From contig JAHDDO010000001.1 of NCBI GenBank assembly GCA_020629315.1, positions 46,730 to 110,729 on the forward strand: a stretch of 64,000 nucleotides of DNA, read 5' to 3'. Under the pieces are notes generated by a model. That model saw nothing but the letters and a program-made list of their open reading frames with translations. It was not told where the DNA came from and made no database searches. Source of the DNA: Saprospiraceae bacterium (lineage in GTDB: Bacteria; Bacteroidota; Bacteroidia; Chitinophagales; Saprospiraceae). The stretch's first letter is position 1; every line of letters starts with the position of its first letter. Below are positions 20,318 to 37,194 of this stretch, piece by piece. Made by a program: the position numbers and the translations under genes.

Positions 20318-20367
20318 GAATCAATCTATTGCAGTAGGCGTTATAGCTTCGAACTGAATATACTATA

Positions 20368-20778
20368 ATGGTTACCCATATTGCACACACGCTAGCCGCT
20401 AGGTCTCGTGGATTTCATTTGATTACGGAAGAAATTCTTGCTGTTGCTGGCTCACTACCAAGCACTGGAATACTACATGTTTTTATCAAACATACATCGG
20501 CAGGCTTATGTGTTAATGAAAATGCTGATCCTGATGTTTTACATGACTTTGAATTATATTTTAATAGACTAGCTCCTGAGCACATGGAAGGTATGAAGCA
20601 CACCATCGAAGGTCCTGATGACATGCCTGCACATATTAAAGCTGTACTTACAGGAAACCATATCAGCCTCCCAATTGTGAATGGGCGTTTGGATTTAGGT
20701 ACATGGCAAGGTATCTACCTATGTGAATGTAGGAATCGTGCAAACCCTAGAAAATTACTGATTAGCATCTACAGCTAA
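20368..20778 (+). CDS. yjbQ: YjbQ/UPF0047 family protein
   Basis: 136-aa single-domain protein. Family-defining segments are all present: HTSAGLCVNENADPDV, a central DDMPAHIKAVLTG and LPIVNGRLDLGTWQGIYLCE. The His/Asp/Cys residues form a metal-binding pocket in solved members. Some homologues show thiamine-phosphate synthase activity in vitro, but the physiological role is not settled. It ends the nine-gene plus-strand run and its stop codon abuts the stop of the LamG gene on the other strand, with no gap. Confidence 0.9.
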   Translation: MVTHIAHTLAARSRGFHLITEEILAVAGSLPSTGILHVFIKHTSAGLCVNENADPDVLHDFELYFNRLAPEHMEGMKHTIEGPDDMPAHIKAVLTGNHISLPIVNGRLDLGTWQGIYLCECRNRANPRKLLISIYS

Positions 20779-21732
20779 TTATTGCTTTATAAACTGGGCT
20801 TTCTGTTTTACTTTTCCATCTTCAAATAGTAGAGCAGTGTAGTGTCCTTGTACAAGCTTTGATAGCTCTAGCCTTTCTTGTGCTTTTCCCTTCATCACAA
20901 GAGTACCTGCACTATCATATATTCTGAATGTACAAGAAGGACATTGGACCACCCCATCCAAATGTATATAGTTATCCGATGGATTCGGAAATACCGTAAT
21001 ATTTGGTAGCTCTGACCACTCATCCAATCGACTCAGTGTCCTATTATAGATATCACCAATTTCTTCAGCAGAAAGCGCTCGCTCATAAATAAGAAGCTCA
21101 TCAACCAAACCATTAAAAGTGTGATCTGAGAAAAAATCCGATTGCAGTCCAATTAAAAATGGAGATTGACTAGGAGGCAGCGCTTCATCAAATAGCATTT
21201 CACTAGACAGGGCCCCATCGATAAATAACTGAATAGAATTGCTATCCACCTGGGCTGTAATATGTTGCCATACCTCTGGCACTAAACTTTCTGCATGTTC
21301 CAAGATGTTCCCTGATACCAGATTAGGGTTAAAACGGACTACCTGTTCATAGGGATTGACGCCAATATAAATACCGCCAACGCCAAAGCCAGACCAATTA
21401 TTTACTAGTGCTGTCCAATCCGTTATACTCTCATTAGGATATACCCAAAAGCTAATACTAAAGTCATTATTCTGTCCACTGAAATCAAAATCTGTAGGTT
21501 CAATCGTCCCGAAATACCCTCCATTTAAGTCAATGGCTTCAATAGCTTGACCAAATCGATCATCCGCTCTGAGGAAATCATTCATGTAATTATCAAAGTG
21601 CTTTTCATTACCACTTTGATCAGTGATCCCGCCATTATAGAATTCATAATACGCTACTAGTCCTTCCGTTGGGATCTGAGCGTAAATCGATGAAAAAAGG
21701 AACAGAAAAAGGTTTAGGTACACGTATTTCAT
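20779..21732 (-). CDS. Secreted LamG-domain protein with T9SS type A signal
   Basis: 317 aa. Signal peptide at residues 1-18 (MKYVYLNLFLFLFSSIYA). A LamG/concanavalin-A-like jelly roll follows at ~20-225, with FSISFWVYPNES, WQHITAQVDSN and FNGLVDELLIYERALSAEEI, the standard strands of this fold. The last ~75 residues are a T9SS type A sorting domain (ITVFPNPSDNYIHLDG ... GHYTALLFEDGKVKQKAQFIKQ). Such domains are recognised by the T9SS and removed on attachment to the surface. Sugar or protein binding is inferred. It lies downstream of the 1926-aa gene but is separated from it by a strong terminator. Confidence 0.9.
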   Translation of the reverse strand: MKYVYLNLFLFLFSSIYAQIPTEGLVAYYEFYNGGITDQSGNEKHFDNYMNDFLRADDRFGQAIEAIDLNGGYFGTIEPTDFDFSGQNNDFSISFWVYPNESITDWTALVNNWSGFGVGGIYIGVNPYEQVVRFNPNLVSGNILEHAESLVPEVWQHITAQVDSNSIQLFIDGALSSEMLFDEALPPSQSPFLIGLQSDFFSDHTFNGLVDELLIYERALSAEEIGDIYNRTLSRLDEWSELPNITVFPNPSDNYIHLDGVVQCPSCTFRIYDSAGTLVMKGKAQERLELSKLVQGHYTALLFEDGKVKQKAQFIKQ

Positions 21733-21758
21733 ACTTCAGAATTTACCTTAAAATAAAA

Positions 21759-21786
21759 AAGAGCTTGCAAAAATTCGCAAGCTCTT
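21759..21786 (-). terminator. Intrinsic terminator of the 1926-aa gene
   Basis: Arms 21777-21786 and 21759-21768 form a perfect 10-bp stem (AAGAGCTTGC / GCAAGCTCTT) with an 8-nt loop. On the minus strand it is followed by TTTTTATTTT, 22 bp after the stop at 21808. Confidence 0.92.
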
Positions 21787-21807
21787 AGTATTTCCTTTTT
21801 ATTTCGG

Positions 21808-24800
21808 CTATTGAACCTTCGTGATTTTACTGGTTTGATATACCTTCCCAGAGCTGAATTTCACAATGTAATTTCCTGCCGCTAGGTCCGTTAGGGGTAT
21901 CGTTATTTTACGAGGATCCGTCTTTTTAGCAGATACCGCATGTAGCACTTTTCCATGAATATCCACCACACTAATTTCGCAATAGTCGCCTGGAATCTCT
22001 TGAAGATCGACGATGATATAATCATTAGCTGGATTAGGCATAAGCGTGTATAACAACTTCCCTTGCTTAATACCAACCTCAGGATCTTCCTCGCCAGGCC
22101 CTGCTCCATCTCCACAATCATCTCCGGTCAATCTTTCTATTTCTACATAGTTAGCAGACAATGCAGAGCAACCTATTGCCAAGGATGAGCTCGATAAGTC
22201 ATCCCCTACCTCAATGTCCAAAGTTCCAATATAAGCTACGCCCCATACTCGACAAAAACCAGCATCTGCCCCTTCAACATCTAGTGTATTATCCGGTAAT
22301 ACACCTAAGACAATATTGCTATCATCCGTAACTACAAAGGCATAATCACTACTCTCATTCGTAGACTCAAACACCAAAATATCAGATGTTCCATCGTCAA
22401 CACAAACCGTGGTACTTTCACTACCATCGATTAGACTGACTTGGCCGGCAGACATTTTGTTCGAGCAGCTAGCCACTAATTCTAATTCATCTATATCCCA
22501 AGCCGTAGCTTGCGCTAAACTTCCAATTAAACAGTATCCTAATAACTCAAAACTAAATTCAGTGACCTCATCAACTGTAAAAGCAGGAACATCAGAAAAA
22601 TCAAATATCTCCAGTGAATAATCAGGACCCGTTTCTATTCCAGTCTGTTTGTATACTTCTGTACCATTGGCCAAAACTCTAATACCATAAAGGGTTGGGT
22701 AATTATTGTTTCCAGTCGCCCCATTTAACCATTCAAATTGCTCAGGGGCTCTTTCGAAGAAGCTCAATTCTGAAATGTGTGCAACACCACTAATACCAGG
22801 CGTCACTACCACTGAAAAGCGCAAGGCATAATCACTATCATTCTGGAAGCTACAACTATTCAATGAGCTCACACAAATAGCCGGTGTTTCCTGGATACCT
22901 GGGGTACATGAATGTTTGAAGTTTTGCGGATCGTTTCTAAATACAACATTGCTACTCACCTCAAAACTGGCACAATCCTCCATGTTAGAAATGATAGGCG
23001 TAAACTCTGAATAGTCACAATGCTCATTCTCCTGTGTATCCGCATTACAATCATTAAAATTGAAGTAAACAAAAGACTCTCCTTCCCCTTCGGCTTCCAC
23101 TCTATTTACAATGATCAAATTCGAAAGATCATAACAACCTTCTAAATCAAATAATGAACCACCCACTTCGAGGTTTTCGATATCATAATAACTAACGTGC
23201 CCCACTAAACAAGTACCTGGATCTGTACCTTCAAAATCAAAAGGTGGGCTATCTGGCAATTCAAGAATAACCCCATCTCCATTCGTAATAAACCAGCTCA
23301 TTTCTGGTCCTTGGGCACCTGATAGATTCACATCGAATACATCGGAAATGCAATCTCCTGTACAAATAGTAATCTCTTCACTACCATCTTCTAACGATAG
23401 CACGCCCCCATCAGGTGCTTCGATAATAATCGTTATTGGGTTTGATAGTTCAAAACATCCAGACAAATCAGCCGCAGAAGATCCAAGACTGAATCCAGAT
23501 GGCAATTCATTATAACTAATACTCCAAATCTGGTAGACTGGATCATTACCAAGAGCATTTATATCAAAGGTATTTGAGGAACTGATCACAATAATTTCAC
23601 CTGTCGGATCAGTAACTAAATAGCGCTGGTTTTCCCCTTTAGCTTCTTCTACATTTACCGTCACAAAATTAGGTGTCCCGTTAAAACAAATATCCGTGTT
23701 ATCATTCGTACTTAGGAATCCGCCTTCAACACATTCTCTAGTTACCGTAAATGGGTCTGATACCGCGTAACAACCTTCAAGATCTTCTAGATCACCACCC
23801 ACTTCTAATCCATCGAGGTCTGTAAAGCTGACATTCCAAATATCAAAGTTAGTACCTGATCCAGTGGTAGGAATAATAACAGGTAGGTCATCATAGATCG
23901 CTATAATTTCGCCTGTAATTTCGGTTACGACAAAGTTAGTATTACCCTTTGCGCCTTCTAATGCCACATCAATTATAATGCCTTCACCCGTTTCACAATA
24001 GATAAGTTCTGGACCACTTAATGAGCCTGGATCTACACATTGACGTTCGATAGCAATCGGATCTGATAAATCAAAACATCCTACTATATCATTGGCATCA
24101 GCTCCGATTTCAACACCGCCTAAAATACCTTCGTAAGATATATGCCAGACTAAACAAATGCCGTCCCCTGCTCCACTAAAGTCTATCGGAGTACTGGCCG
24201 GCAGTCCTAGAATGATTCCATTTTCATCAGTTACAATCCACGCAGATTCTGATCCTACATTTTCTGACACACTAAAATCTACTATATCAGATTCATCATC
24301 ATCACCTAGACAAAGGACGGTTGGTCCTGGCGTAGAAATCTGTCCACCATCAACTTCTAAATAACTAAATGTGATGCCATTAGAAAGATCGAAGCAGCCC
24401 TCTAGGTCCGACACATTTTCGCCTTCAAGCAAGCCTGAAAGGCCATCCGTATAAGAAATGTTCCATACGGTATAATTCAACTCATCTTCGGGTAGAATGA
24501 AAGAATCCGTATTCGATACAAGTATTATGTCTCCTTCATCGTTCGTTAGCACTAATCGCTGATTATCTCCTTTAGCGCCAGATGTATTGGTTTGGATGGT
24601 GTATTCACTACCATCTAGACAATAGAATAATGGGTCGTTAGAACTGATTGATCCACCATCTACGCAATTCCGGGTTACAGATACCGGATTAGAAAGATCA
24701 AAACAGCCTGCTAATTGACTGGCATTATTACCGACAGCCAAACCTTCTATTTCATCATTATAACTAAGATGCCAGACTAAGCATACCCCCGCTCCTGCGT

Positions 24801-27588
24801 CACTAAAGTCAAATGGCGGTACTACTGGCAATCCCAATATATTTCCATTATCGTCTGTAATGACCCATTGGGACGTTTCACCAAAAGTATTAGACACAGA
24901 AAAGTTAACTAGATCTTGTTCATTTGCATCACCTAAGCATATATCCGTAGGGCTTAGTGCGACAACTTCACCACCATCTACATATTCAATATCCACCACT
25001 CTTGGCTCAGATAAAACATAGCAACCTACAAGATCATCAATATTTTCTCCTTCCGTTAAACCGATAATACCTTCTGTATTGCTAATATGTACTATTTCAA
25101 AACTTTGATCTTGACTATTAGAAGGGATCGTAAACTGACCCGTTTCTTGAATCTGGATAATAAGCCCTTCTTCATTTAGTAAGGTCCAATGTCCTTCATC
25201 GCCTTTTTGACCATCTACGGTCATAGTAATCGACATTGTTTGGCCTAAATCACAAATGGTGGTATCTGTAGCCGGTATCAATTGGCCGGGCGCTACACAG
25301 TTTCGTACGATGGCTACAGGATTAGAGAGATCAAAACAGCCTGCTAAATCCCCAGCATTAGCTCCAGCTTCTAGCCCAATAATGCTTTCATAGCTTAGGT
25401 GCCAAATCAGACAAGTACCGGGTCCTGCTCCTGATAAATCGAAAGGAGGAGAGGCAGGCAATCCTAAAATGGTCCCATCTTCATCTGTAATCACCCATGC
25501 TGACTCTGAACCTTCCTGGCCCATCAAGCTGACACTCACTGTGCCCTCTGATCCATCACCTATGCATATTTCTGATTGCGGACTAGACAGTTCTCCACCT
25601 TCAACCAATAGCTTCTCTATGGTAAGGACATTGGACAAAGCAAAACAACCGGATAAATCAGAAAGCGTATTCCCTAGAGTGAGTCCTTCAATCTCAATGT
25701 AAACCAGATGTATAATGCTACATTCTTCCGCATCATAATTCGATACATCAAATAAATTTGACGATTGTATATCCAATATCTCCTGATTCTCATCGACAAC
25801 TAAAAATGTGTTATTATCTCCTTCGAAGTTCGAGGCCGTTACCGTTACTATATCTGTCTCATTCCCACCGATACACACCTCTGCAATGTCAGAAGATATT
25901 TCAGCCGGAGTAACCCCGTTTCTAATCACACGGATAGGATCGGAAAGTGAAAAACAACCTTCCAGATCATCAATATTTTCTAGACCTGAAAGATCTCCTA
26001 CTTCATCTTGATAGGCTAAATGATAGATAAAACATACGCCATCCCCTGCCCCTTCAAAATCAAAAGGTGGTACAGCATCAAATGCGATAACCCCGCCAAA
26101 AGCATTGGTTATAATCCAAGCAAAATTCTCACCCAGATTAAATAGTACATCTACATCCACAAGGTCTGCTACACCATCTGTCACACAAAACTCTGTCGGA
26201 TCTTCAGTGCTAATTTCGCCTGAAGCCACTTCTTCTCGTACTACTTCAATAGGGTTAGATAAAGCATGACAACCCACTAGATCATCGATATGCGCACCAA
26301 AGGTTCCTCCTTCTAAGGTTCCAAACCAACTGACGTGCCATATCTGGCAAATACCCACCCCGGCTTCTTCAAAATCAAAAGGCGCTTGCGCATCAAAGAT
26401 CAATATGTTACCAATGCCATCCGTTATAACCCATGCATTGTTATCTCCATTATTACCTTCTAAGCTAACATTGATTATATCTTCCGTTTCATCACCAGAA
26501 CAAATAAAGGTATTATCCTCTGTACTTATTTCACCACCTAAAATCTCTGTTCGCTCTACTGCAATAGCATTGGACAAATCAAAACAACCTTCTATAGTAT
26601 CTAAATCAACGCCTGGTTCTAATTGCGTAAACAGTGAGGAATAACTGATATGATAAATCAAGCACGTACCCCCACCAGCACCTTCAAAATCAAAAGGAGG
26701 TTCGCTAGGCACAGCTAAAATTTGTTTGTTCTCATCGGTAATTACCCATGCTGAAAAATCACCAAAGTCACCACCCAAGTTTACATCAACTAGGTCTGGC
26801 TCGCCGTCACCCGTACACACACTTAGTGGGTCTTCGGTCTCGATACTTCCTCCCTCTACTAGGCAAAAGTCACAGCAAGAAAGGACTGTTATTTCATCAA
26901 TATCCCAAGCAGTTGCTTTACCCCAATTTTCGGCCAAACAGTAGCCTAAAAGTTGAAATTGGAAGTCTGTGGTTTCAGTAACACTAAACGCTGGGTTATC
27001 ACTAAAATCAAAACACTCCAAGGTCCAATCGGTAGTCGTAGGAATATCTTCTTGTAAGAACACTTCTTGTCCATTTGCCAACACTCGCAATCCATATAAG
27101 GTAGGATAATTATTATCATCTGATGCCCCATTCACCCATTCGAAAATTTCGGGTGCTTTTTCGTAAAACTCAAGGCCACTAAGGCTAGCTACCTGACCGT
27201 TTTCAGGTGATACGCGCACATCGAAATACAATGTCCGGCTGTGCTCTGGTGTAAAAGTACAGGTGTCCGCCGATGAGATACACATCGCTAAAGAATCAAA
27301 ACCTGGTGTACATGAGTGTTTACTCAGATACGGGTTTTCACGATACAAATGACCGCCTAAAACTTCAAAATTGGCACAATCGGAGCCCATAGGATAACTA
27401 GCCGTAAATTCACTGTAATCATGGTCATTAACCCCTGCAATGGCTTCGCAGGCATCTAAACTAAAATGAATAACTTCTAATGGGTTTTCGCAAGCCGGTC
27501 CTTGGCTAGCTGTAGTAGTTGAAGTAGGGTTTGCCATTGCCCCAACGCAGAGCAAGGCCCAAATGAGCATTGTAAAAATTCGTTTCAT
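21808..27588 (-). CDS. Giant bookended-repeat secreted protein 1 (1926 aa, T9SS type A)
   Basis: I do not recognise a named family for the repeat. Signal peptide at residues 1-19. Residues ~30-240 form an uncharacterised domain (here 'A') with DYSEF, KHSCTPG, NNYPTLYG and ATAWDIDE. Twelve tandem repeats of about 104 aa follow (~240-1495), with consensus ISTxDP...C..., AWVITDExGxILGLP, PPFDFxGAGxGxCLIWHLSY and DLxGCFDLSNPI. A second A domain lies at ~1500-1707, then a thirteenth repeat, then a T9SS type A sorting domain (LMPNPANDYIIVDL ... GNYIVKFSSGKV). Repeats 5-10 alternate between GxC-containing and GxC-lacking types, the latter preceded by a linker Cys. Extracellular, probably disulfide-stabilised rod, inferred. 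Paralogue of the next upstream gene. Confidence 0.88.
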   Translation of the reverse strand: MKRIFTMLIWALLCVGAMANPTSTTTASQGPACENPLEVIHFSLDACEAIAGVNDHDYSEFTASYPMGSDCANFEVLGGHLYRENPYLSKHSCTPGFDSLAMCISSADTCTFTPEHSRTLYFDVRVSPENGQVASLSGLEFYEKAPEIFEWVNGASDDNNYPTLYGLRVLANGQEVFLQEDIPTTTDWTLECFDFSDNPAFSVTETTDFQFQLLGYCLAENWGKATAWDIDEITVLSCCDFCLVEGGSIETEDPLSVCTGDGEPDLVDVNLGGDFGDFSAWVITDENKQILAVPSEPPFDFEGAGGGTCLIYHISYSSLFTQLEPGVDLDTIEGCFDLSNAIAVERTEILGGEISTEDNTFICSGDETEDIINVSLEGNNGDNNAWVITDGIGNILIFDAQAPFDFEEAGVGICQIWHVSWFGTLEGGTFGAHIDDLVGCHALSNPIEVVREEVASGEISTEDPTEFCVTDGVADLVDVDVLFNLGENFAWIITNAFGGVIAFDAVPPFDFEGAGDGVCFIYHLAYQDEVGDLSGLENIDDLEGCFSLSDPIRVIRNGVTPAEISSDIAEVCIGGNETDIVTVTASNFEGDNNTFLVVDENQEILDIQSSNLFDVSNYDAEECSIIHLVYIEIEGLTLGNTLSDLSGCFALSNVLTIEKLLVEGGELSSPQSEICIGDGSEGTVSVSLMGQEGSESAWVITDEDGTILGLPASPPFDLSGAGPGTCLIWHLSYESIIGLEAGANAGDLAGCFDLSNPVAIVRNCVAPGQLIPATDTTICDLGQTMSITMTVDGQKGDEGHWTLLNEEGLIIQIQETGQFTIPSNSQDQSFEIVHISNTEGIIGLTEGENIDDLVGCYVLSEPRVVDIEYVDGGEVVALSPTDICLGDANEQDLVNFSVSNTFGETSQWVITDDNGNILGLPVVPPFDFSDAGAGVCLVWHLSYNDEIEGLAVGNNASQLAGCFDLSNPVSVTRNCVDGGSISSNDPLFYCLDGSEYTIQTNTSGAKGDNQRLVLTNDEGDIILVSNTDSFILPEDELNYTVWNISYTDGLSGLLEGENVSDLEGCFDLSNGITFSYLEVDGGQISTPGPTVLCLGDDDESDIVDFSVSENVGSESAWIVTDENGIILGLPASTPIDFSGAGDGICLVWHISYEGILGGVEIGADANDIVGCFDLSDPIAIERQCVDPGSLSGPELIYCETGEGIIIDVALEGAKGNTNFVVTEITGEIIAIYDDLPVIIPTTGSGTNFDIWNVSFTDLDGLEVGGDLEDLEGCYAVSDPFTVTRECVEGGFLSTNDNTDICFNGTPNFVTVNVEEAKGENQRYLVTDPTGEIIVISSSNTFDINALGNDPVYQIWSISYNELPSGFSLGSSAADLSGCFELSNPITIIIEAPDGGVLSLEDGSEEITICTGDCISDVFDVNLSGAQGPEMSWFITNGDGVILELPDSPPFDFEGTDPGTCLVGHVSYYDIENLEVGGSLFDLEGCYDLSNLIIVNRVEAEGEGESFVYFNFNDCNADTQENEHCDYSEFTPIISNMEDCASFEVSSNVVFRNDPQNFKHSCTPGIQETPAICVSSLNSCSFQNDSDYALRFSVVVTPGISGVAHISELSFFERAPEQFEWLNGATGNNNYPTLYGIRVLANGTEVYKQTGIETGPDYSLEIFDFSDVPAFTVDEVTEFSFELLGYCLIGSLAQATAWDIDELELVASCSNKMSAGQVSLIDGSESTTVCVDDGTSDILVFESTNESSDYAFVVTDDSNIVLGVLPDNTLDVEGADAGFCRVWGVAYIGTLDIEVGDDLSSSSLAIGCSALSANYVEIERLTGDDCGDGAGPGEEDPEVGIKQGKLLYTLMPNPANDYIIVDLQEIPGDYCEISVVDIHGKVLHAVSAKKTDPRKITIPLTDLAAGNYIVKFSSGKVYQTSKITKVQ
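23080..26870 (-). repeat. Array of 12 ~104-aa repeats in giant protein 1
   Basis: Twelve tandem coding units of roughly 312 bp. Each ends in a GCxxLSN/GCYxxS motif followed by a short linker and GG/PG. Units 1-5, 7, 9 and 12 have Cys in the GxC/EC position. Units 6, 8, 10 and 11 lack it and instead follow a linker ending CV. Confidence 0.85.
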
Positions 27589-27602
27589 GTAAAATCATTT
27601 AG

Positions 27603-27631
27603 CCGGCTTCTTCTGGTTAGGAAGAAGCCGG
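27603..27631 (-). terminator. Hairpin terminator between the two giant genes
   Basis: Perfect 11-bp G+C-rich stem, CCGGCTTCTTC (27603-27613) with GAAGAAGCCGG (27621-27631), and a 7-nt loop, 33 bp downstream of the 2115-aa gene's stop. The minus-strand tail (AAATGATTTT) is a weak T tract, so termination may be partial, allowing some read-through into the 1926-aa gene. Confidence 0.65.
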
Positions 27632-27664
27632 TTAATTATTTGAGGTCTTGTGTAAAGAGACCTT

Positions 27665-30600
27665 TTAAATCTTAATAAACTTCTGGGTCATTCGTTGATC
27701 ACCACTGGTCACCATTACGAAATAACTACCCATACTCAGCGACCTTACATCTAGGTTCACTGTTGTTGCATCAATTATATTGAATGGGTTCATACTAACT
27801 TTCTGACCCAATTCATTCAAGATCAGCACCTCAAACGAAGTTGAAGGCAGTTGATCAAATTCTATTCTAATAAAGTCTGAGGCTGGATTAGGGCTTATGC
27901 TATAATCCAATGCCACTGTCTGAGGTAAGACCATCAAGCATCCAGTCTCCGTAGTCACAATAAGTGGATCCTCCGTGATATCAAAACAACCTTCTATATC
28001 TAGATTGTCGATATGGGCTCCCGGTATGTAATCAAATATGCCTAAGTATACCATAGCATACACCTGGTACTGTCCAGGACTTAATAAGCCAAAATCAAAA
28101 CTATCCTCCGTGCTCGCGACTACTCTATCATTACTATCTACGATTAGGTAGACATAATCTAAATCTCCTGCGTAATCAGATGAGAAATCTATCATACTTA
28201 CATCTTCTTCATCCAAGCAAATCTCAATATCATTACCTCCAGGAAGTGTAAAGGAGCCGGCAGAAAGCTTGCCTGAACAAGTAGCTTCTACGAATAATTC
28301 ATCGACATCCCAAGCCGCTACGTCTGCCCCATTTCCAATTAGGCAATACGGTAATAACTCGAAATCAAAGTTTGTCTTCTCAGAAACTTGGAAGGCTTCA
28401 ATACTGCTAAAATCAAAGCTTTCTAAGGTGTAGTTAGGACTCGTATTAATATCCGCTTCTTCATAGATCACACCCCCGTCTACAAGCACTCGTATAGCGT
28501 ACTTAGTCGGATAGTTATTTATCCCATCAGCACCATTGATCCAATCAAACGTTTCAGGAGCTGCTTCATAAAAACGAAGGGCAGCTAAACTAGCTGTTTG
28601 GCCCTCTGCAGGATCTACAGAGAAGGTAAACCTAATGGCATGATCATTACCCGCATCATACGTACAATCATCCAAAGCGCTGACACACATAGCTGGCGAA
28701 CCATTTACACCTTGCGTACAAGAGTGCGCATTTATGTCCGGATTACTTCTATACAAGAAGCCCCCTTCTAGTGTCAGATTTGCACAATTTTCGTCATTGT
28801 CCATATCAGCGGTAAACTCACTATAATCTATATGACTAGCATCGTCTGGATGAGAGGCGCAATCATCGAAGTCTATATGAGCCAGAGATCGACCATTATA
28901 ACCTGCACTATATCTAGTTACGGTCACACTATTCGACAGATCAAAGCAGCCTTCGAAATCTAGGATTTCATTTCCGACAGTAAGACCAGTAAAGTTATCA
29001 TCGAATACCACATACCAAATTCGGCAAATGCCTGGTCCAGCGTTTTCAAAATCAAATGGAGGACCGGCCGGTAGTGCTACAATAGCTCCTTCCTCATTGG
29101 TGATAAACCAAGCTCCTTCAAATTCGCCAGTAGTGGTGCTTTCTACAAACAGAGGTTCAATCACGCAATCACTGACACAGATTCCGACCTCAATATCTCC
29201 GTTTTCAAGATTTATCTTTCCAGCTTCTAATTGTGATTGCGTAATCACAATTTTATTGGAAAGATCAAAACAACCCGATAAAGCAGTGATATTATTACCT
29301 ACTGCAAGACCAGAAATACCTGTTGCATAGCGCAACTGATATATAAAATAAGGTCCCACCGTTAGGTTGCTTACATCAAGCGTGTTTGACGATTGTATGT
29401 CAACAATATTCTCATTTTCATCTGTAATCACAAATACTGATTCACCGCCTGAGCCACCTACTACTTCAACAACTAAAGTCCCGAAGTTCTCATTACAGAT
29501 TATCGTTGGATCTGTGGTAGAAATGGTTCCCGCTGTTATGTCATATAAGCTTACATCAAGGCCATTGGACAAGTCAAAACAACCTTCAATATCACTGACA
29601 TTATTACCTACACCTAGGCCATTTATGTTTGTAGAACTGATATTCCATATCGTCCAAGCTGAACCTACATTTGCATCAAATGTAATTGGGCTTGTTTCTG
29701 ACAAGGCTATGATATCGCCTGTATTATTCGTTACTACGAAAGACTGATCGTCTCCTTTCTGCCCAGTTAAAACAAGATCTAGTGTGATCGACTCTGTATT
29801 ATCACAATACGAGAGCGGGTCTGAAGTACTCAATTCTCCACCTGCCACACAAGCAACAGAAACCTCGATTGATTCACTACTATCAAAGCATCCGGAAAGA
29901 TCATTAAGGGCATCACCTATTCCGATAGCTCCTATATTATCCGAGGCTATACTTGTAACAAAGAATGTTTGTGAGCCACCAGCATATGGATAATCTATGG
30001 CTCCTGAGGCAGTAATGTGTACTATTTCACCCGTAGCATTGGACAACACAACAAGCTGATCTCCAACAGCATTTGTAGTTGTAACATTCAGTTGTATATT
30101 CTCACCAGGGTGTAAACAAAGTGAGGTATAATCAACCGATATCGTCCCTGCATCAAGCTCAATAAAAGTGAGATCTATTGGGTTAGATAGGTCAAAGCAA
30201 GCTTCTACATCACCCACATTAGTACCTACATGTAATGGTGTACTTGCGCTGGCAACATTCCATACTTGCAATCCAGAACCTGATCCAGACAATGGAAGAT
30301 CAAATAGGCTATTAGTACTTGTGTATATGATAGTACCTGACTCATCCGTCACTACAAATTGCTGTACAGGTCCTTTTTCGTTTTCAAGTTGTATGTCTAG
30401 ATTTAAAATATCTGTAGTCGCACAGAAACTAGTTTCGCTATTGGTTGAGATATCTCCACCTTGGACACAATCAATAGTAATGTCAATCGGATTAGATATG
30501 TCTGTGCAGCCTGCAAGATCTTCTATGTTCTGCCCAAGGTCTAGTCCCGTTCCACTCCCGGTGCTTACTATCTGATAAATTTGGTAACTACTAGCTCCGC

Positions 30601-33600
30601 CTTCGTGAACTAGATCGACTATATTCCCTTCAGTGCTGAACACTACATTCCCAAATTCATCCAAAAGAACTAATTGACTAAGATCACCTTCTTCTTGCGT
30701 GCTTTCAACACTAATGCTAGTGCTGACATTTTCATCGCAGAAATACACAGGATCATCTGTGGATATTGTACCTGCCTCAGCCACTAAGATGGTAACTGGG
30801 ATATTATTAGACCGGTCAATACACCCTGTGATATCATCTACTGATTGGCCTACTACATTATCTAAAGCTGTATCCGAAGCAATGTACCAAATATCACTGG
30901 CCGTCCCTGACCCTGTCATGCTGATGTCAATGGTACCGTTCTCACTGCTGCCAATCACTACACCCGCCTCATTTGTTACGACGTATACACCAAAGTTGCC
31001 TTCTGCATCTATGAGGGTTACATCTATGGTTTGGTCTCCATCACTCGCACAAAAAATGCTTGGATCATCAGTGCTAATCATGCCTCCATCAACAAACGCA
31101 AGTGATACGGCTAATGGATTAGATAAATCATAGCATCCATTGAGTGAAGTCACGCTATCACCCTCATCTAGGTCTACCTCTTCCGAAGAAGATACATTCC
31201 AAATTTCGTATTGGGTCCCAGACCCAGTTAAGACTATATCTACAGTGGTACCTGAACCTGTGTAAACTACTAGTCCTTCTTCATTGGTAATCACAATTTG
31301 CTGAAAAGATCCTTTCGCTTCTTCGAGTTGTATATCTACATTTAGATTGGCATCATGTCCACACAGGTCTAGCGGATCATCTGTGCTAATGACACCACCA
31401 TCCACACAATCCACTTTTACGTCCAATGCATTAGATAAAGCAAAGCATCCTGTAATATCGGCAAGAGTATTAGATACTTCTAAACCAGTAACGCCATCGT
31501 TATAACTGATTAAATAAATAGAATATCCTAACTGCCCATTAGTAAGATCAAAGGTAAACTCAGCTGTATTGTTAATCTCGATTATCTTTCCTGTCTGATC
31601 TAAGAGTAGATAGCGTTGGTTCTCACCTTTAGCATTTGATGATGTCAGATGTATGGATGCAGATTCATTGATATTACATAAGGTCAATGGATCTTGGGTG
31701 GAAATTTCACCCCCATTTACACAGCTCACAGTAAAGGCAATGGGTTGTGATAAATCAACACAACCACTAATCGCTGATGCGCTTGAACCTAGCTGCGGAG
31801 CCTCGTTCACATCGCTATACGAAAGATACCATAATTGGAAATTACTTCCTTGTCCAGAGAGATCCGTAACAAACATACCTTGCTGAGATAGCGCTACAAC
31901 TATACCCGCTTCATTTGTAATTAAATAGCTTCCAAAGTTTCCTTTAGCGCCTACTACATTGGCATTGAAATCAATTACACCATTGGAACTACAAATATGC
32001 TCACTGATATCACCTTCTAACACGCCGCTATCTACGCAATCAACGGATATTTCAAGAATGTTTGACAGTGCAAAACAGCCTGTAATATTTTCTAATGTAG
32101 CGCCTTGCTCTAAGCCGGTTAATCCACCTTCAAATGATATATATTGAATGGTATATCCCGTTATGCCATTGGTAAGGTCCAATGTTATGTTTGGCGTATT
32201 TTCAATACTCTGTATTACTCCAGCATTATCTGTAAGAACCCAAAATCCTTCATTACTAGTATTACCTGCAATATCGAGATCTATAGTTGCTGTAATTGAA
32301 TTACTACAAAATGCTAGGGATTCAGTGGTGGAAATACTTACATCATCTAAGGCGATGATCTCGAATGAAACCGCTTCAGAGGCTTCATAACAACCAGCCA
32401 CACTACTCAATTCACTGCCTGGAAAAAGTCCATTTAAATCACCTGTATTATGAAGTAAAACTACTTGATAGTTTCCACCTGATAAGGCGCTTATGTCTAT
32501 CGTATTATCTTGAGAAATAAGCGTAATAAGCCCTAGATCATTGATTACTAAATACGTAGCTTCAAATGCTATGCTGCTTGCAGGATTTACCACTAAGACA
32601 TCGCTCTCGCTTTTACAAAAGCTGTTATTATCTATATTGATTTGAATGGGCTCTAGGTCTATAATATTGATAGTAATGCCATTACTGATTGCAAAACAGC
32701 CTTGAATATCAGTAACATGGACACCATCTAGTACATTTGAAATAGTATTATAGGAAACATTATACACTGTGTACGTCCCTACTTCTAAGCTAGAAATATC
32801 AATAGTATTCCCATCAAAAAAGGCTAGGATCATACCATTCGCATCAGAAATAAGCAGAATATTTTCGTCCCCATTATTTCCAGATATCTCAAACGCAATT
32901 TCAGTAGCATTTGCTTGCTCATCTATACATATATCTGTCTTGGAAGAGGTAGTCAAATTGCCCCCTTCGATCAAGTCAAAGCTCACATTTATTGGGTTAG
33001 ATACCACATAACATCCTTGAGAGCCAAATAATGAATCACCAACTTGTAAAGGGCCAAAACCATCGTCGTAATTGACATGATATACAGCAACACCATTTGA
33101 TGAATTTGCATCGAAAGTAGGCTCTGTATCATTATAAACGGCTATAATTGAACCGGTTGCGTCAACAAGAACAAAAGAATAGTGCTCACCTACTCCCCCA
33201 ACTATGCTAATGTCCATAGCTAGGTCCGCTGGATCATTTAAGCAAAAGTTTGTTTGATCTGCATTTATTTCAGCAGCCTCAGGATTGCATGGATCACAAC
33301 AATTGTAAAATTTTATTTCATCTATATCCCATGCATTTACTGGAGAACCATTATTAACTGTACAATAAGGTAAAATTTCAAAATTGAACTGGGTCGTTTC
33401 TGTAACTGTAAAGTTAGGGTTTGAAGAAAAATCGTAGCTTTCGAAACTCCAATCTCTTGATGTCTGGATCCCTTGTCTGAGATATATTTGGACGGAATCA
33501 ACCGTCACTCGTAAAGCGTATTTAGTAGGATAATTATTTGGACCAGACGCACCATCGATCCAATCAAACGTTTCTGGGGCCTTTTCAAAAAAGCTAAGCC

Positions 33601-34012
33601 CGCTTAATGAGGCTTCTTCACCTGTTGTAGGAGATACGAGCACTTCAAAACGGATGGCTTTATCATGATACGGTACAAAATCACATTCATCCACAGACGA
33701 AATACACATGGCTTCGGAATCATCCACACCTGGTGTACACGAATGACCATTTACTTCAGGATTATTTCTGTATAGTTGGGAAACCGTAAAAGATCCACAC
33801 TGACTTTGTGAAGGATAAGAAGCCTGAAACTCTGAATAATCGTTGGCTGTACTTCCTACAACCGCGTCACAGGCATTTAAGTCGAAATGAGCTACAATGA
33901 TAGAGTCATTGCAAATAAAATCTGAATTAATTGCAGAACTGTTTGCAAAACCATCGTTTGCAAATAGTACACAACTAACAATACCAAAAAGTAGCAAAAG
34001 CATGCGTTTCAT
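27665..34012 (-). CDS. Giant bookended-repeat secreted protein 2 (2115 aa, T9SS type A)
   Basis: Same architecture as the 1926-aa neighbour: signal peptide (~1-23), A domain (~30-237), fourteen ~104-aa repeats (~237-1705), second A domain (~1707-1910), a fifteenth repeat and a type A sorting domain (SISPNPASDFIRIEF ... GSYFVMVTSGDQRMTQKFIKI). A-domain motifs NGHSCTPGVDD, NNYPTKYA and NAWDIDE match the paralogue. Most repeats are the GxC-lacking type with IWN/VYN instead of IWH; only repeat 14 has GPGICRIW. Repeat 14 also has a C-x3-C pair (ICVSDC) at the same place as repeat 12 of the paralogue (ICTGDC), so the C-terminal ends align in register. Function unknown; adhesive or fibrous surface role inferred. 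It has its own predicted promoter. Confidence 0.88.
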   Translation of the reverse strand: MKRMLLLLFGIVSCVLFANDGFANSSAINSDFICNDSIIVAHFDLNACDAVVGSTANDYSEFQASYPSQSQCGSFTVSQLYRNNPEVNGHSCTPGVDDSEAMCISSVDECDFVPYHDKAIRFEVLVSPTTGEEASLSGLSFFEKAPETFDWIDGASGPNNYPTKYALRVTVDSVQIYLRQGIQTSRDWSFESYDFSSNPNFTVTETTQFNFEILPYCTVNNGSPVNAWDIDEIKFYNCCDPCNPEAAEINADQTNFCLNDPADLAMDISIVGGVGEHYSFVLVDATGSIIAVYNDTEPTFDANSSNGVAVYHVNYDDGFGPLQVGDSLFGSQGCYVVSNPINVSFDLIEGGNLTTSSKTDICIDEQANATEIAFEISGNNGDENILLISDANGMILAFFDGNTIDISSLEVGTYTVYNVSYNTISNVLDGVHVTDIQGCFAISNGITINIIDLEPIQINIDNNSFCKSESDVLVVNPASSIAFEATYLVINDLGLITLISQDNTIDISALSGGNYQVVLLHNTGDLNGLFPGSELSSVAGCYEASEAVSFEIIALDDVSISTTESLAFCSNSITATIDLDIAGNTSNEGFWVLTDNAGVIQSIENTPNITLDLTNGITGYTIQYISFEGGLTGLEQGATLENITGCFALSNILEISVDCVDSGVLEGDISEHICSSNGVIDFNANVVGAKGNFGSYLITNEAGIVVALSQQGMFVTDLSGQGSNFQLWYLSYSDVNEAPQLGSSASAISGCVDLSQPIAFTVSCVNGGEISTQDPLTLCNINESASIHLTSSNAKGENQRYLLLDQTGKIIEINNTAEFTFDLTNGQLGYSIYLISYNDGVTGLEVSNTLADITGCFALSNALDVKVDCVDGGVISTDDPLDLCGHDANLNVDIQLEEAKGSFQQIVITNEEGLVVYTGSGTTVDIVLTGSGTQYEIWNVSSSEEVDLDEGDSVTSLNGCYDLSNPLAVSLAFVDGGMISTDDPSIFCASDGDQTIDVTLIDAEGNFGVYVVTNEAGVVIGSSENGTIDISMTGSGTASDIWYIASDTALDNVVGQSVDDITGCIDRSNNIPVTILVAEAGTISTDDPVYFCDENVSTSISVESTQEEGDLSQLVLLDEFGNVVFSTEGNIVDLVHEGGASSYQIYQIVSTGSGTGLDLGQNIEDLAGCTDISNPIDITIDCVQGGDISTNSETSFCATTDILNLDIQLENEKGPVQQFVVTDESGTIIYTSTNSLFDLPLSGSGSGLQVWNVASASTPLHVGTNVGDVEACFDLSNPIDLTFIELDAGTISVDYTSLCLHPGENIQLNVTTTNAVGDQLVVLSNATGEIVHITASGAIDYPYAGGSQTFFVTSIASDNIGAIGIGDALNDLSGCFDSSESIEVSVACVAGGELSTSDPLSYCDNTESITLDLVLTGQKGDDQSFVVTNNTGDIIALSETSPITFDANVGSAWTIWNISSTNINGLGVGNNVSDIEGCFDLSNGLDVSLYDITAGTISTTDPTIICNENFGTLVVEVVGGSGGESVFVITDENENIVDIQSSNTLDVSNLTVGPYFIYQLRYATGISGLAVGNNITALSGCFDLSNKIVITQSQLEAGKINLENGDIEVGICVSDCVIEPLFVESTTTGEFEGAWFITNEEGAIVALPAGPPFDFENAGPGICRIWYVVFDDNFTGLTVGNEILDFEGCFDLSNSVTVTRYSAGYNGRSLAHIDFDDCASHPDDASHIDYSEFTADMDNDENCANLTLEGGFLYRSNPDINAHSCTQGVNGSPAMCVSALDDCTYDAGNDHAIRFTFSVDPAEGQTASLAALRFYEAAPETFDWINGADGINNYPTKYAIRVLVDGGVIYEEADINTSPNYTLESFDFSSIEAFQVSEKTNFDFELLPYCLIGNGADVAAWDVDELFVEATCSGKLSAGSFTLPGGNDIEICLDEEDVSMIDFSSDYAGDLDYVYLIVDSNDRVVASTEDSFDFGLLSPGQYQVYAMVYLGIFDYIPGAHIDNLDIEGCFDITEDPLIVTTETGCLMVLPQTVALDYSISPNPASDFIRIEFDQLPSTSFEVLILNELGQKVSMNPFNIIDATTVNLDVRSLSMGSYFVMVTSGDQRMTQKFIKI
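28920..33300 (-). repeat. Array of 14 ~104-aa repeats in giant protein 2
   Basis: Fourteen tandem coding units, each with an early Cys and a late GCxxxS motif. Linker Cys (DCV/SCV/ACV) precedes units 5, 6, 7, 10 and 12. The GxC Cys occurs only in unit 14. Divergence between units is higher than in the paralogue. Confidence 0.83.
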
Positions 34013-34209
34013 GCATCAAACTTTAATTCATCAAATAAAGTAAACATGACCAGCTAGGTCGCTACAGGTTGGTTTTTATCACATAACTTTCTGACTAATA
34101 AAGCCTTAGAAAGTCACTACAGTAATAACTAGTAATAGTTTACTGTGTACCATATACTATTATATCAAATAAAGGACCAATAATTTCTCGGGTATAAGAT
34201 ATGGTGGTG

Positions 34210-34240
34210 AGGGTAATAATATTACCCTTCTACAAATATA
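34210..34240 (-). promoter_or_regulatory. Promoter -7 box followed by a 19-bp palindrome (giant gene 2)
   Basis: Minus-strand TATATTTG at 34240-34233 fits TAnnTTTG exactly. Five bases downstream is a perfect palindrome, AGGGTAATA-A-TATTACCCT (34210-34228), which would cover the predicted transcription start. This is an operator-like layout. The leader to the ATG at 34012 would be about 215 nt. No T tract follows, so it is not a terminator of the upstream gene. Confidence 0.5.
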
Positions 34241-34297
34241 TAAATACTTGGCTTGAAGAGGATTAGCTTGGTAGTTAATATTATAATTTTAACATAT

Positions 34298-35392
34298 TTA
34301 ATATCCCAAGATGCTTAATCTTCTAGTAAAGATTTTTTTACCATCTGGTCGTACAATGGCATATAAAAACGTTCCTTTTTGAGGGTTGGGTAGATTAAAT
34401 TTATGTACCATTAATTCCTCATTTACTAAGAAGGATTGCCGCCATTGTCTTTGCCCTATAATGTTGTATAACTCAAAAAAGTAATCACCAGGTTCTAGTT
34501 GATTACACAACACATTTACATTCCCAAAAGTGGGATTTGGGTACACTTGTATAGACGAATCTTCACTCTGGCATAATCGTTTATTAATAGGGAAATTAGG
34601 TTGACTTATCAAATCAACATACTTTATTTGCTCCTTGTATTTACAAAGCTGGGCCATCCAAATACCCTTAAACGAATTAAATATATCTATATATGTAAAT
34701 GAATCATTAACAGATAAATGTGTAGCAATACTTTCCAAATCAAGATTAGTACCTGAAGCAGGATCCGAGACTTCGACGATACTACATTTATAATTAGAGT
34801 TAACCGGATAACTCAGTCGTTCTCCAAAATTGAAAATCGTTTTTTGTTGCAAGTCTACTTCATATACAAGCTCCAAATTTACTTTTAAGATCAAGGAGTC
34901 TTTTCCCGCTGTTGTCAATATTTTATGCCAAGTCTCCCCTACCTGACCTTGCCGTACCGTAATATATCCAGTAGTGTTATGTGTCTGGCTTTGACCTTCA
35001 CGTGCAGGATAGCTTATATATCGTAGGGTTTTATCAAAAATCAGTTTTTGCGGCCTACTGAATCCAAAAATATATTGTACACTAATGCCCTCTAGATAAA
35101 AGGCCTTTTTTTCATGACTATGCTGCTTTCTCCAAAAATGAGGGGCTTCCAAGGTATACCCATGATCATTCGCAGCTATTAACATATGCTGGGCACATGG
35201 AAGATCTAATTGACCAAGATCGTAATTCTGAATATTTCCTTGATCATCTTCACCGATATATCCGGGTTCATATACACGTACGTACACCAAAGAATCTTGA
35301 TCTTCTTGAAAGTATAATGAAGAAAGCGGCACTTGAGCCATCAATTGAAGGCTCCAAAGAAAAGCGGTAATGGATAATAAACGTTTGATCAT
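34298..35392 (-). CDS. Secreted protein of unknown function with T9SS type A signal
   Basis: 364 aa. Signal peptide at residues 1-19 (MIKRLLSITAFLWSLQLMA). The central ~260 residues resemble no family I can name; they include SYPAREGQSQTHNTTGYI and NFGERLSYPVNSNYKCS, and look like a beta-rich, lipoprotein-like or calycin-like fold. The last ~80 residues are a type A sorting domain (IQVYPNPTFGNVNVLC ... GTFLYAIVRPDGKKIFTRRL). The start codon overlaps the ABC exporter stop by 4 bp, so it is translated from the fabH-led transcript, which is unusual for a surface protein. Confidence 0.85.
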   Translation of the reverse strand: MIKRLLSITAFLWSLQLMAQVPLSSLYFQEDQDSLVYVRVYEPGYIGEDDQGNIQNYDLGQLDLPCAQHMLIAANDHGYTLEAPHFWRKQHSHEKKAFYLEGISVQYIFGFSRPQKLIFDKTLRYISYPAREGQSQTHNTTGYITVRQGQVGETWHKILTTAGKDSLILKVNLELVYEVDLQQKTIFNFGERLSYPVNSNYKCSIVEVSDPASGTNLDLESIATHLSVNDSFTYIDIFNSFKGIWMAQLCKYKEQIKYVDLISQPNFPINKRLCQSEDSSIQVYPNPTFGNVNVLCNQLEPGDYFFELYNIIGQRQWRQSFLVNEELMVHKFNLPNPQKGTFLYAIVRPDGKKIFTRRLSILGY

Positions 35393-37194
35393 CTTACATT
35401 CTGAATTTCAATATACTTTCTATAAATACCTTCTGTTTGAGATAAGCTCTCGTGATCACCTGAAGCTACAACCTTTCCTTGATCAAAAACATAAATTAAG
35501 TCCGCATTTTTTATGGTACTCAGTCTATGAGCTACAATGATCGATGTCCTTCCTTTCATGGCCTTTTGCAAGGCTTCGTTTACTATTTTTTCAGCCGCTG
35601 GATCTAACGCAGAGGTTGGCTCATCTAATAATAAAATTTGTGGATTAGCAAAGAGTGCCCTAGCTATAGATATTCGTTGTTTTTGTCCCCCTGAAAATCT
35701 AGAGCCTTTTTCAGCAACCACTGTATGTATTCCATTTTCTAATGGTTTAACAAATTCGGAGACATAGGCCATCTCCATAGCTTTGTTGAAATCTTCAACA
35801 TCCAGCTGACGCCCGAAGAGTATGTTCTGTTCCAAACTATCATGAAATAGAAAGGCTTCTTGTGTTACCCAACTTACGCTTGATCTCCATTGTTGCTGTG
35901 GGATACCTTTCAATGGGATCCCATCTATTAGTATTTGTCCAGTATAATGAGGGTGGAATTGCATTAAAACCTTTAGCAGAGTAGATTTTCCTGACCCAGA
36001 GGCACCCACAAAGGCCACTGTTTTTCCTTTAGGAATCACAATATTCACATCAGAAAGAATCTCTTCATCTTCATAGGCAAAATGGAGCCCTTTTATAGCG
36101 ATTTCTTTATTGAATGTAATGGCCTCTCCTCTATTATTCCCAATTTGATCTACGGTTTGCATTCCCAAGACATCCTCAATACGATCTAATGCACCCATAC
36201 CTTTCTGAATATTATAAAAGGCATTAGCAAAGGTTTTGGAAGGATTAATGACCTGATAAAAAGCGAAGATGAAAGAGAAAAAAACAGCAGAAGTAATACT
36301 GCCGTTAAACACTTGAAAAGCCCCAAAGTAAAGCAAGGCTGCTACCACACTCACACCTAAGAATTCAGAGATGGGCGAAGAGAGATCTTTTCTACGGATC
36401 AGGGCATTAATCCTGTGTTTATAACTAGCATTGATCTTTCGAAATCTATGTAACCAATAATCATAGGCATTATATGATTTTATTACCGGCATACCACTGA
36501 TAGTCTCCTCTAAGGTCGCATTGAGCCGTCCCAAATCCTGCTGCACTATGCCAGATTCCTTTTTTAACGTTCTAGAGATTCCACCAATTATTAGACCGGT
36601 GAAAAGAATTAATACAAACACAAATAAAGTAAGAGGAACATTGACATATAGCATATACCCAATACAACCTATTATCATTAATGGTGCTTGGAAAGTGACT
36701 ATGAGAAACTGTAGAATACTAGACTCCACTTCTTGCACATCATTACTCATTCTGGCTAATAAATCTCCTTTTCTGTTTTTTTGAAAATATTGGATAGGTA
36801 GTGCTAAGTATTGTTCGAATAACTGATTACGTAGACCTTCAACTACCCCATTTCTAACACCAGCCAAAAAATACATGGCTCCATATCTAAATGCGTTTTT
36901 TAGAAAGAATACCGCAATAATAAAAAGACATAAATATAGTAGGGTTTGTTCTTTACTATGATCCAATACAAGGCTAGAAAATTTATGCTTGATAATATCA
37001 ACAAAGCTAGGATCAGCACCTAATGACAAAGTCATGTTAGGTTCGCCTCCAAATAGGATGTCAAAAAATGGAATGAGTAATGGAATAGAAATTAAAGCAA
37101 AGATAGCTTCTAATATCAAGCACAAAACACTTACAGTGACTTGAGATTTGAATGGTCTAATTTTCGATAAGAGACTCCGGAAAGAGGCATTCAT
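35389..37194 (-). CDS. ABC exporter, MsbA/MDR-like half transporter
   Basis: 601 aa. Residues ~15-320 hold a six-helix exporter membrane domain. Residues ~355-600 are the ATPase: Walker A GASGSGKSTLLK, Q-loop VTQEAFLF, signature FSGGQKQRISIARAL, Walker B ILLLDEPTSALD and the H-loop AHRLSTI. The protein works as a homodimer exporting lipids or other hydrophobic substrates from the inner leaflet. A lipid A/LPS flippase role is the common one in this branch but is not proven. Located 18 bp after accC and overlapping the next gene by 4 bp, which ties membrane lipid synthesis and export on one transcript. Confidence 0.9.
   Translation of the reverse strand: MNASFRSLLSKIRPFKSQVTVSVLCLILEAIFALISIPLLIPFFDILFGGEPNMTLSLGADPSFVDIIKHKFSSLVLDHSKEQTLLYLCLFIIAVFFLKNAFRYGAMYFLAGVRNGVVEGLRNQLFEQYLALPIQYFQKNRKGDLLARMSNDVQEVESSILQFLIVTFQAPLMIIGCIGYMLYVNVPLTLFVFVLILFTGLIIGGISRTLKKESGIVQQDLGRLNATLEETISGMPVIKSYNAYDYWLHRFRKINASYKHRINALIRRKDLSSPISEFLGVSVVAALLYFGAFQVFNGSITSAVFFSFIFAFYQVINPSKTFANAFYNIQKGMGALDRIEDVLGMQTVDQIGNNRGEAITFNKEIAIKGLHFAYEDEEILSDVNIVIPKGKTVAFVGASGSGKSTLLKVLMQFHPHYTGQILIDGIPLKGIPQQQWRSSVSWVTQEAFLFHDSLEQNILFGRQLDVEDFNKAMEMAYVSEFVKPLENGIHTVVAEKGSRFSGGQKQRISIARALFANPQILLLDEPTSALDPAAEKIVNEALQKAMKGRTSIIVAHRLSTIKNADLIYVFDQGKVVASGDHESLSQTEGIYRKYIEIQNVR

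Follow-up and report, generated by a model that had tools for sequence, protein, structure and literature searches.

Two adjacent two-headed proteins of a Saprospiraceae bacterium, most likely type IX secreted surface adhesins built from two unnamed domain families

Introduction

What could be displayed by two very large neighbouring genes that share one unusual order of modules, and how might such a pair have arisen? The question is raised by a stretch of 64,000 nucleotides (hereafter the window) from a Saprospiraceae bacterium (assembly GCA_020629315.1, contig JAHDDO010000001.1, positions 46,730 to 110,729 of the forward strand), in which two adjacent open reading frames (ORFs) of the minus strand, P2 (27665..34012, 2115 aa) and P1 (21808..27588, 1926 aa), are separated by 76 bases. 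The reading reached here, which we hold to be probable, is that P1 and P2 are paralogous cargo of the type IX secretion system (T9SS) and act as surface adhesins, in which a head domain resembling carbohydrate-binding modules (CBM), here termed A, would bind a polysaccharide or glycoprotein, each protein carrying two such heads and the pair offering two reaches. Overall, this is most likely a T9SS surface adhesin of a familiar kind, built from two families that are unnamed in Pfam and NCBIfam. What is new is the fold assignment, the spread of A through the family as a T9SS head, the finding that a second genus also has the two-headed layout, and a stalk whose length stays constant among congeners.

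Activated sludge and marine particles commonly harbour Saprospiraceae, and to our knowledge little has been established about the proteins with which they attach to particles and to other cells. For the study of attachment in this family, A is of interest as a recurrent head, present in about a quarter of the sampled family genomes and nameless in Pfam and NCBIfam; if it binds glycans, its 79 aligned sequences would define a new carbohydrate-binding family and provide a testable model of attachment.

Layout of the two genes

In both proteins a signal peptide is followed by an A domain, an array of 12 (P1) or 14 (P2) repeats, a second A domain, one more repeat and a T9SS type A sorting signal. 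The features, with window coordinates and the basis of each assignment, are:

27665..34012, minus strand: P2, predicted T9SS surface protein of 2115 aa (signal peptide, A, 14 repeats, A, one repeat, C-terminal sorting domain); ORF, Pfam, repeat profile
33944..34012, minus strand: P2 signal peptide, about aa 1-23; by eye and a crude hydrophobicity rule
33290..33913, minus strand: P2 first A domain, aa 34-241, predicted jelly roll, the sequence used for the A model; profile, alignment, predicted structure
28904..33280, minus strand: P2 array of 14 Ig-like repeats, aa 245-1703; repeat profile, fold from the model
28271..28891, minus strand: P2 second A domain, aa 1708-1914; profile, alignment
27956..28249, minus strand: P2 last repeat, about aa 1922-2019; repeat profile
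27677..27901, minus strand: P2 T9SS type A sorting domain, aa 2038-2112; Pfam, NCBIfam
21808..27588, minus strand: P1, predicted T9SS surface protein of 1926 aa (signal peptide, A, 12 repeats, A, one repeat, C-terminal sorting domain); ORF, Pfam, repeat profile
27532..27588, minus strand: P1 signal peptide, about aa 1-19; by eye and a crude hydrophobicity rule
26869..27489, minus strand: P1 first A domain, aa 34-240; profile, alignment
23092..26853, minus strand: P1 array of 12 Ig-like repeats, aa 246-1499, with the modelled pair at 24034-24663; repeat profile, model
22465..23085, minus strand: P1 second A domain, aa 1502-1708; profile, alignment
22132..22446, minus strand: P1 last repeat, about aa 1715-1819; repeat profile
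21826..22041, minus strand: P1 T9SS type A sorting domain, aa 1850-1921; Pfam, NCBIfam

An initial annotation, made from the letters of the window, had described a bookended pair with 12 or 14 repeats and four occurrences of A, and the ORFs, the motifs and the repeat profile agree with it. The motifs HSCT[PQ]G, NNYPT and AWD[IV]DE are found in two copies in P1 and two in P2, and the repeat profile counts 12+1 repeats in P1 and 14+1 in P2. The GC motif of the repeats recurs at a spacing of 102-108 aa, the exceptions being 320 and 322 aa, which are the gaps that hold the second A, and 206 aa, where one P2 repeat was missed by the pattern.

Fold and kinship of the A domain

The A domain has about 200 residues and six or more conserved cysteines. 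Over 79 aligned A domains, H57, S58, C59, C70 and N126 are invariant, and C15, E28, T60, F108, P113, N127, Y128, P129, R135, T151, F162, F168, Y183, W195 and D196 are nearly so; all four copies in the window retain the invariant HSC, NN and WD residues, and the other three are 42-54% identical to the first.

The AlphaFold2 model derived from these 79 domains is a jelly roll (pLDDT 96.1, pTM 0.91), against which 226 of 973 aligned chains reach Z 8. For example, Foldseek matched it to CBM4-2 (E 7.5e-6), and VIA gave a Z of 11.2 both to CBM4-2 XG34 (3.3 Å over 151) and to RBD1 of the C. difficile binary toxin (2.5 Å over 123), with further values of 10.9 for CBM22, 10.4 for meprin beta (in the part that we take to be its MAM domain), 9.7 for CBM16, 9.6 for reelin, 9.5 for the gingipain K3 adhesin and about 9.5 for Stig cyclases. 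The model, then, presents A as a beta jelly roll rich in cysteines, nearest in fold to the CBM4/CBM22, clostridial RBD1, meprin, reelin and gingipain-adhesin domains. Structure matches of A in a viral library (tail and CenC-like proteins, E 1e-6 to 4e-4) were set aside as generic jelly rolls.

At the level of sequence, neither module had matched a family that the initial annotation could name, and the profile searches bear this out. When P1 and P2 were scanned with Pfam and NCBIfam up to E 1, only the sorting domain rose above its cut-off, and the comparison of 79 A domains and 72 repeat pairs with Pfam returned scattered weak matches, the commonest families being found in 2 of 79 and 4 of 72 members, respectively. 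Structure prediction, on the other hand, gave confident folds for both (pLDDT 96 each). The SGL match (E 0.00095, in 2 of 79 A domains) and the DUF5643 match (E 0.001, in 2 of 72 repeat pairs) were taken as chance.

CBM_4_9 (PF02018) and Cleaved_Adhesin (PF07675) were each matched by 0 of 79 A domains up to E 0.1, and both were rejected as sequence homologues by profile comparison with hhalign, which gave A 0.6% against 15 CBM_4_9 domains from the relatives' genomes, and 14.5% over 50 columns against 11 Cleaved_Adhesin domains, a value above the negatives and far from significant. As controls, halves of the CBM set reached 99.9% against each other and comparisons expected to fail gave 0.1-3.1%; 1 of 16 CBM and 2 of 13 Cleaved_Adhesin loci had been skipped for incomplete flanks. 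A is thus best regarded as a family that is new in sequence and known in fold, leaning towards Cleaved_Adhesin faintly and without significance.

The pairing of the cysteines of A as C15/C206, C59/C70 and C77/C184 is a guess. Over 74 rows, C77 and C184 are both present in 53, both absent in 21, and never found singly (0 rows); this pattern needs just two changes on the tree, and for that reason the small p value of the co-occurrence does not stand for many events.

The repeat arrays

The repeats are readily recognised as protein: with a profile made only from those of P1, 15 repeats are detected in P2 (whole-sequence E 1e-267), compared with no match up to E 10 in the reversed P2 or in 20 shuffles of it. 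As DNA, TRF reported 0 arrays in 20000-36000, and over the 12.2 kb of both genes two 20-base words and no 25-base word recur on the direct strand. Because the repeats are invisible at the DNA level, the arrays of P1 and P2 are judged to be old; the mean identity between the repeats of one protein is 37% in P1 and 30% in P2. Recent arrays are found elsewhere, with neighbouring repeats 92% identical in locus L079 and 83% in L159.

The model of a repeat pair, based on an alignment of 72 such pairs, consists of tandem sandwiches like those of immunoglobulin (Ig) or fibronectin type III (FnIII) domains (pLDDT 96.0). Among solved structures, 677 of 997 chains reach a VIA Z of at least 5 against it, with a best Z of only 8.2, and the repeat is by this prediction an Ig/FnIII-like sandwich, a common fold. 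Some sequence matches to the repeat profile were discarded. Those to Ika8 and Ika4 in the PDB (whole-sequence E 3.9e-6 and 7.8e-4) contained no single stretch that passed, vanished with a larger profile, and are taken as an effect of repetitive chains; those to mistletoe lectin (E 0.015 and 0.028) were weak.

The arrays also hold some internal order. In titin, neighbouring repeats are proposed to avoid likeness, and this idea found no support here, since adjacent repeats resemble each other, on average, a little more than they would if shuffled (mean at or below the observed one in 296 of 300 shuffles). There is a weak period of two, in that repeats two apart are 46.1% identical, compared with 43.6% for neighbours (16 of 23 arrays, congeners included; 0 of 300 permutations). 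This period, seen in L159 and in P1, suggests that the arrays grew by two-repeat units. The first half of the L159 gene (1845-8906, minus strand) has repeat lengths that mostly alternate between 104 and 107 aa.

With respect to the cysteines, 449 repeats were aligned and, after duplicates and gappy rows had been dropped, 341 distinct repeats remained, with C13 in 319, C64 in 246 and C90 in 315. As C13 and C90 never vanish together (both 293, C13 only 26, C90 only 22, neither 0), a C13-C90 disulfide is unsupported by co-loss. The next repeat lacks C13 in 9 of 23 cases where C90 is absent and in 13 of 245 where it is present, and the linker cysteine and C64 of the following repeat avoid each other; the repeats are related, hence these counts are not independent, and no bond between repeats was drawn from them.

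Across the phylum, the repeat occurs in 10 of 395 genomes, of which three belong to the family and seven to three further families within the class, with weak, partial matches in two of the seven. The organism's own genome holds another gene with seven such repeats and no A domain (L154, 3885-6989, plus strand, on contig C48), whose 1035-aa product begins with what looks by eye like a signal peptide and continues after the repeats with about 240 aa that, also by eye, resemble a lamin tail, followed by a T9SS tail. Arrays longer than those of P1 and P2 exist without a second head, as in L215 (2179-9681, plus strand) and L216 (1420-8208, minus strand), where one A is followed by 19 and 18 repeats, respectively.

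Sorting signal and secretion machinery

Both proteins end in a type A sorting domain, with Por_Secre_tail (PF18962) scoring 37.5 and 42.4 bits (Pfam cut-off 27), and TIGR04183 scoring 32.6 and 34.7 (NCBIfam cut-off 23). At the other end, a Sec signal peptide is read in P1 and P2 by eye and by a crude hydrophobicity rule, in place of a dedicated predictor. The same genome encodes T9SS components above their cut-offs, SprA_N with 416 bits and GldM with 207.2 bits (cut-off 180). This genome of 3.9 Mb holds at least 150 type A sorting domains (150 of 233 candidates were scored). Excerpts of PMC12618676 describe PorV as the carrier of type A cargo, whose final place is either static on the surface or in the medium, and according to excerpts of PMC9143113 type A proteins are covalently joined to anionic lipopolysaccharide.

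Distribution of the A domain and of the two-headed layout

The A domain is present in 104 of 398 genomes of the family and 39 of 112 genera (own genome included), in 8 of the nearest 60 genomes, and in 2 of 395 genomes sampled across the phylum, the own genome being one of the two. A pattern-based scan of one genome per species (84,980 species) found at least 61 A loci, most of them labelled Saprospiraceae or Saprospirales, together with Chitinophagales, Flavobacteriales (Maribacter among them), Emticicia and one member of Cytophagaceae. The own genome contains five copies, the fifth in its third A protein, which is cut by a contig end (L158, 3-1001, minus strand, on contig C8). At another contig end there is a gene piece with a repeat and a sorting domain (L155, 1-594, plus strand, on contig C57), and the two may be the ends of one gene.

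The 43 complete A proteins considered here (those of loci L056-L116 and of the window) show what A is joined to. By a home-made profile, 40 of them have a T9SS-like C-terminus, the exceptions being L087, L089 and L097; seven of the 40 were seeds of that profile, and without the seeds the count is 33 of 36. In 25 of the 43, no more than 100 residues separate the ORF start from the A domain. Among 12 of these proteins scanned with Pfam up to E 0.01, the partners of A include 18 SprB repeats, SdrD_B, a dockerin-like domain with CarboxypepD_reg, and a C-type lectin domain with DUF11, and none of the partners is a catalytic domain; A stands together with SprB repeats in L092. A gene of the window at 43381-47202 (plus strand, 1273 aa) also has SprB repeats and aligns at 25-28% with A proteins such as L092-L096 and L099.

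Two A domains are carried by 10 of the 43 proteins and a single one by the other 33. The tight form of the two-headed layout does occur outside the window: it is complete in L058 (A, 11 repeats, A, one repeat), L059 (A, 9 repeats, A), L070 (A, 8 repeats, A, two repeats), L156 (A, 13 repeats, A, one repeat) and L157 (A, 8 repeats, A, two repeats), and incomplete, being cut, in L088. All five complete cases belong to species of one other genus (g33), and several share neighbours, so that the tight layout is seen in two genera only and the notion that it recurs widely was dropped. Within g33 the number of repeats varies between species (8, 9, 11, 13), and groups of species share a protein length, of 1535-1544 aa or 1637-1680 aa. 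A looser form, with two A domains and two to four recognised repeats between them, is found in four genes of two more genera (L065, L068, L211 and L212, the last two from two genomes of genus g26).

Congeners and the origin of the pair

In two congeners (G001 and G002), P1 and P2 lie between the same neighbours as in the window. The 14+1 repeats of P2 are found in three species and the 12+1 of P1 in two, since in the third species the stretch examined ends within P1. Repeat starts in P1 of the window and of L112 agree within one residue over 1700, with orthologous repeats 38-64% identical; for P2 the corresponding identities are 26-55%, and the best match of many repeats is no longer the one in the same position. 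The A domains, at 60-68% identity to the best congener, change less than the repeats (26-64% overall). In this genus the count may have stayed fixed through selection on length, or only because repeats that have diverged no longer recombine. The constant stalk length in three congeners lends itself to testing whether selection acts on the reach of surface adhesins.

The initial annotation took the shared layout to show the duplication of one ancestor with the full architecture. The paralogy and the identical layout stand, and the duplication of a complete two-headed ancestor to give P1 and P2 is supported and likely, short of being shown by the layout. In the tree of A domains, the N-terminal copies of the P1 and P2 orthologues group together (6 rows, SH-aLRT 93), as do the C-terminal copies (5 rows, 90), as expected if a two-headed gene had been duplicated before the genus radiated; neither branch is starred, however, and a topology in which the A domains group by protein survives the approximately unbiased (AU) test (p 0.25 and 0.22). 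The repeats that precede the second A (repeat 12 of P1 and repeat 14 of P2) are reciprocal best matches with four cysteines in both, an argument weakened by the finding that 8 of the 13 repeats in P1 have repeat 14 of P2 as their best match.

A probable T9SS adhesin and its alternatives

The adhesin reading rests on the type A C-terminal domain (CTD), the T9SS genes, the predicted folds, the layout and its conservation in congeners, and on the fact that A is mostly found on T9SS-tailed proteins and, in the 12 scanned, beside adhesin-type modules. After Sec export, the proteins would cross the outer membrane via SprA, the CTD would be removed, and the C-terminal end would be anchored statically or partly released. 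The first A would then cap the outer end of a rod made up of 12 or 14 Ig-like domains, with the second A close to the cell; with Ig-like domains about 4 nm long, the stalk would measure about 50-60 nm. The A domain at the tip would most likely bind a polysaccharide or glycoprotein on other cells, particles or matrix, near the base the second A might hold on to matrix or to glycan of the cell itself, and the two paralogues would supply two sets of heads at two reaches.

Several points weigh against this picture. The binding of glycans by A is suggested by the modelled fold, and the same kind of fold is also used to bind proteins (meprin, reelin) or to catalyse reactions (Stig cyclases); comparison with CBM_4_9 domains gave no relation at the level of sequence; and no glycoside hydrolase or lyase domain, of the kind that often accompanies a typical CBM, was found up to E 0.01 in the 12 A proteins. 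The rod shape is extrapolated from a modelled unit of two repeats together, and the roles of "tip" and "base" are guesses.

Given the breadth of the fold, A could instead be a protein-protein or oligomerisation module of the meprin or reelin kind, through which P1 and P2 would assemble into a fibre or coat and not bind sugar; high places in the VIA list are indeed taken by meprin beta (Z 10.4) and reelin (Z 9.6), but the CBM rows are at least as high and a shared fold shows no function either way, which leaves this a rather unlikely alternative. It is a little harder to accept that P1 and P2 are linkers of matrix or of cells, whose two A domains clamp the same kind of glycan and cross-link it at a set distance. 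Having A at either end, as the pair, its counterparts in the congeners and five complete genes of g33 do, would fit a linker, as would the retention of 12+1 and 14+1 repeats in three congeners despite repeat identities of 26-64%, and the invariant HSC, NN and WD residues in all four A domains of the window; on the other hand, 33 of the 43 complete A proteins have a single A, by which two heads seem dispensable for the role of A, the repeat count varies in the other genus (8, 9, 11, 13), and the fixed count may simply follow from DNA too diverged to recombine. The stronger proposal that these are double-headed molecular rulers, with glycan heads at both ends, a stalk selected for length and not for sequence, and an A domain that founds a new, mostly Saprospiraceae carbohydrate-binding family, is more doubtful still, weakened as it is by a tight layout in two genera only and by the varying count in the second.

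A role as gliding adhesins, moved along the cell like SprB, is improbable. A does occur with SprB repeats in L092, GldM and SprA are present, and RemA, with a type A CTD, gave mobile foci in the excerpted text of PMC12618676; SprB, however, has a type B CTD with its own shuttle, whereas P1 and P2 have type A, and the same excerpts report that type A CTDs placed on SprB yielded immobile or released protein. Least credible of all is that the pair are relatives of GhpA, the grappling hook protein of Aureispira with its chain of Ig-like domains, and serve as hooks for prey capture (ixotrophy). Aureispira belongs to Saprospiraceae, as do the window's congeners, and GhpA fragments make up 7 of the first 11 Foldseek rows of the repeat pair (best E 6.9e-5), but the TM-scores are 0.37-0.50 and the VIA Z of 7.2 falls amid unrelated animal and bacterial Ig/FnIII pairs (best Z 8.2). 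The profiles of A and of the repeat gave no GhpA row up to E 10, presuming that GhpA chains are in the sequence set, type VI VipB was not found in the genome (94% complete), and GhpA, which according to PDB titles has at least 5009 residues, is more than twice as long as either P1 or P2. The likeness appears to be that of a common fold, and not of kinship, with hook-like prey capture unlikely.

Comparison with named systems

Placed beside described proteins, the adhesin reading has its nearest functional precedent in RemA of Flavobacterium johnsoniae, a type A CTD adhesin with a lectin domain (excerpts of PMC12618676 and PMC11205867). The likeness lies in the T9SS type A signal and a domain of the sugar-binding type; P1 and P2, in contrast, match no lectin family in Pfam up to E 1 and have two CBM-like A domains that flank an Ig-like array. 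SprB, in turn, is like them a very large T9SS-exported adhesin, but neither SprB repeats (PF13573) nor a type B CTD (TIGR04131) was found in P1 or P2 up to E 1. On the best reading, by analogy, the pair would work like RemA or SprB and be a member of neither group.

For the head, the predicted fold is like that of CBM4/9, CBM22 and CBM16 (VIA Z up to 11.2), whereas the sequence differs from CBM4/9 (Pfam 0 of 79, hhalign 0.6%), with about 200 residues and its conserved cysteines. Gingipain K is a T9SS cargo, and its adhesin domains are jelly rolls, as A is predicted to be (VIA Z 9.5 to Kgp K3), with the same lack of a family match (Cleaved_Adhesin, Pfam 0 of 79; hhalign 14.5% over 50 columns). 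GhpA shares the bacterial family and a chain of Ig-like domains, but gives no profile match and a structural likeness that appears generic. Given that the folds are common, that the whole resembles a T9SS adhesin and that the layout is not unique to the window, the designation of the pair as an undescribed surface system was overstated. A literature search (titles and abstract starts of open-licence PMC papers) found no paper that names this A domain, repeat or layout.

Neighbouring genes

The pair is bordered on both sides by further genes with T9SS tails:

20779..21732, minus strand: downstream of P1, Laminin_G_3 domain and T9SS tail, 317 aa; Pfam, congener comparison
34298..35392, minus strand: upstream of P2, 364 aa, T9SS tail (above the NCBIfam cut-off, below that of Pfam) and no further family

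The gap of 75 bases suggests that the Laminin_G_3 gene is possibly co-transcribed with P1. Compared with the congeners, the Laminin_G_3 protein is 34% and the upstream protein 37-41% identical, while the flanking genes are 63-90% identical; these cargo neighbours diverge as fast as the pair itself, and all of them faster than the flanking genes. In locus L061 (1629-13100), a block also found in the window, made up of KAS III, two small genes, biotin carboxylase and an ABC transporter, has an A-domain gene on its other side.

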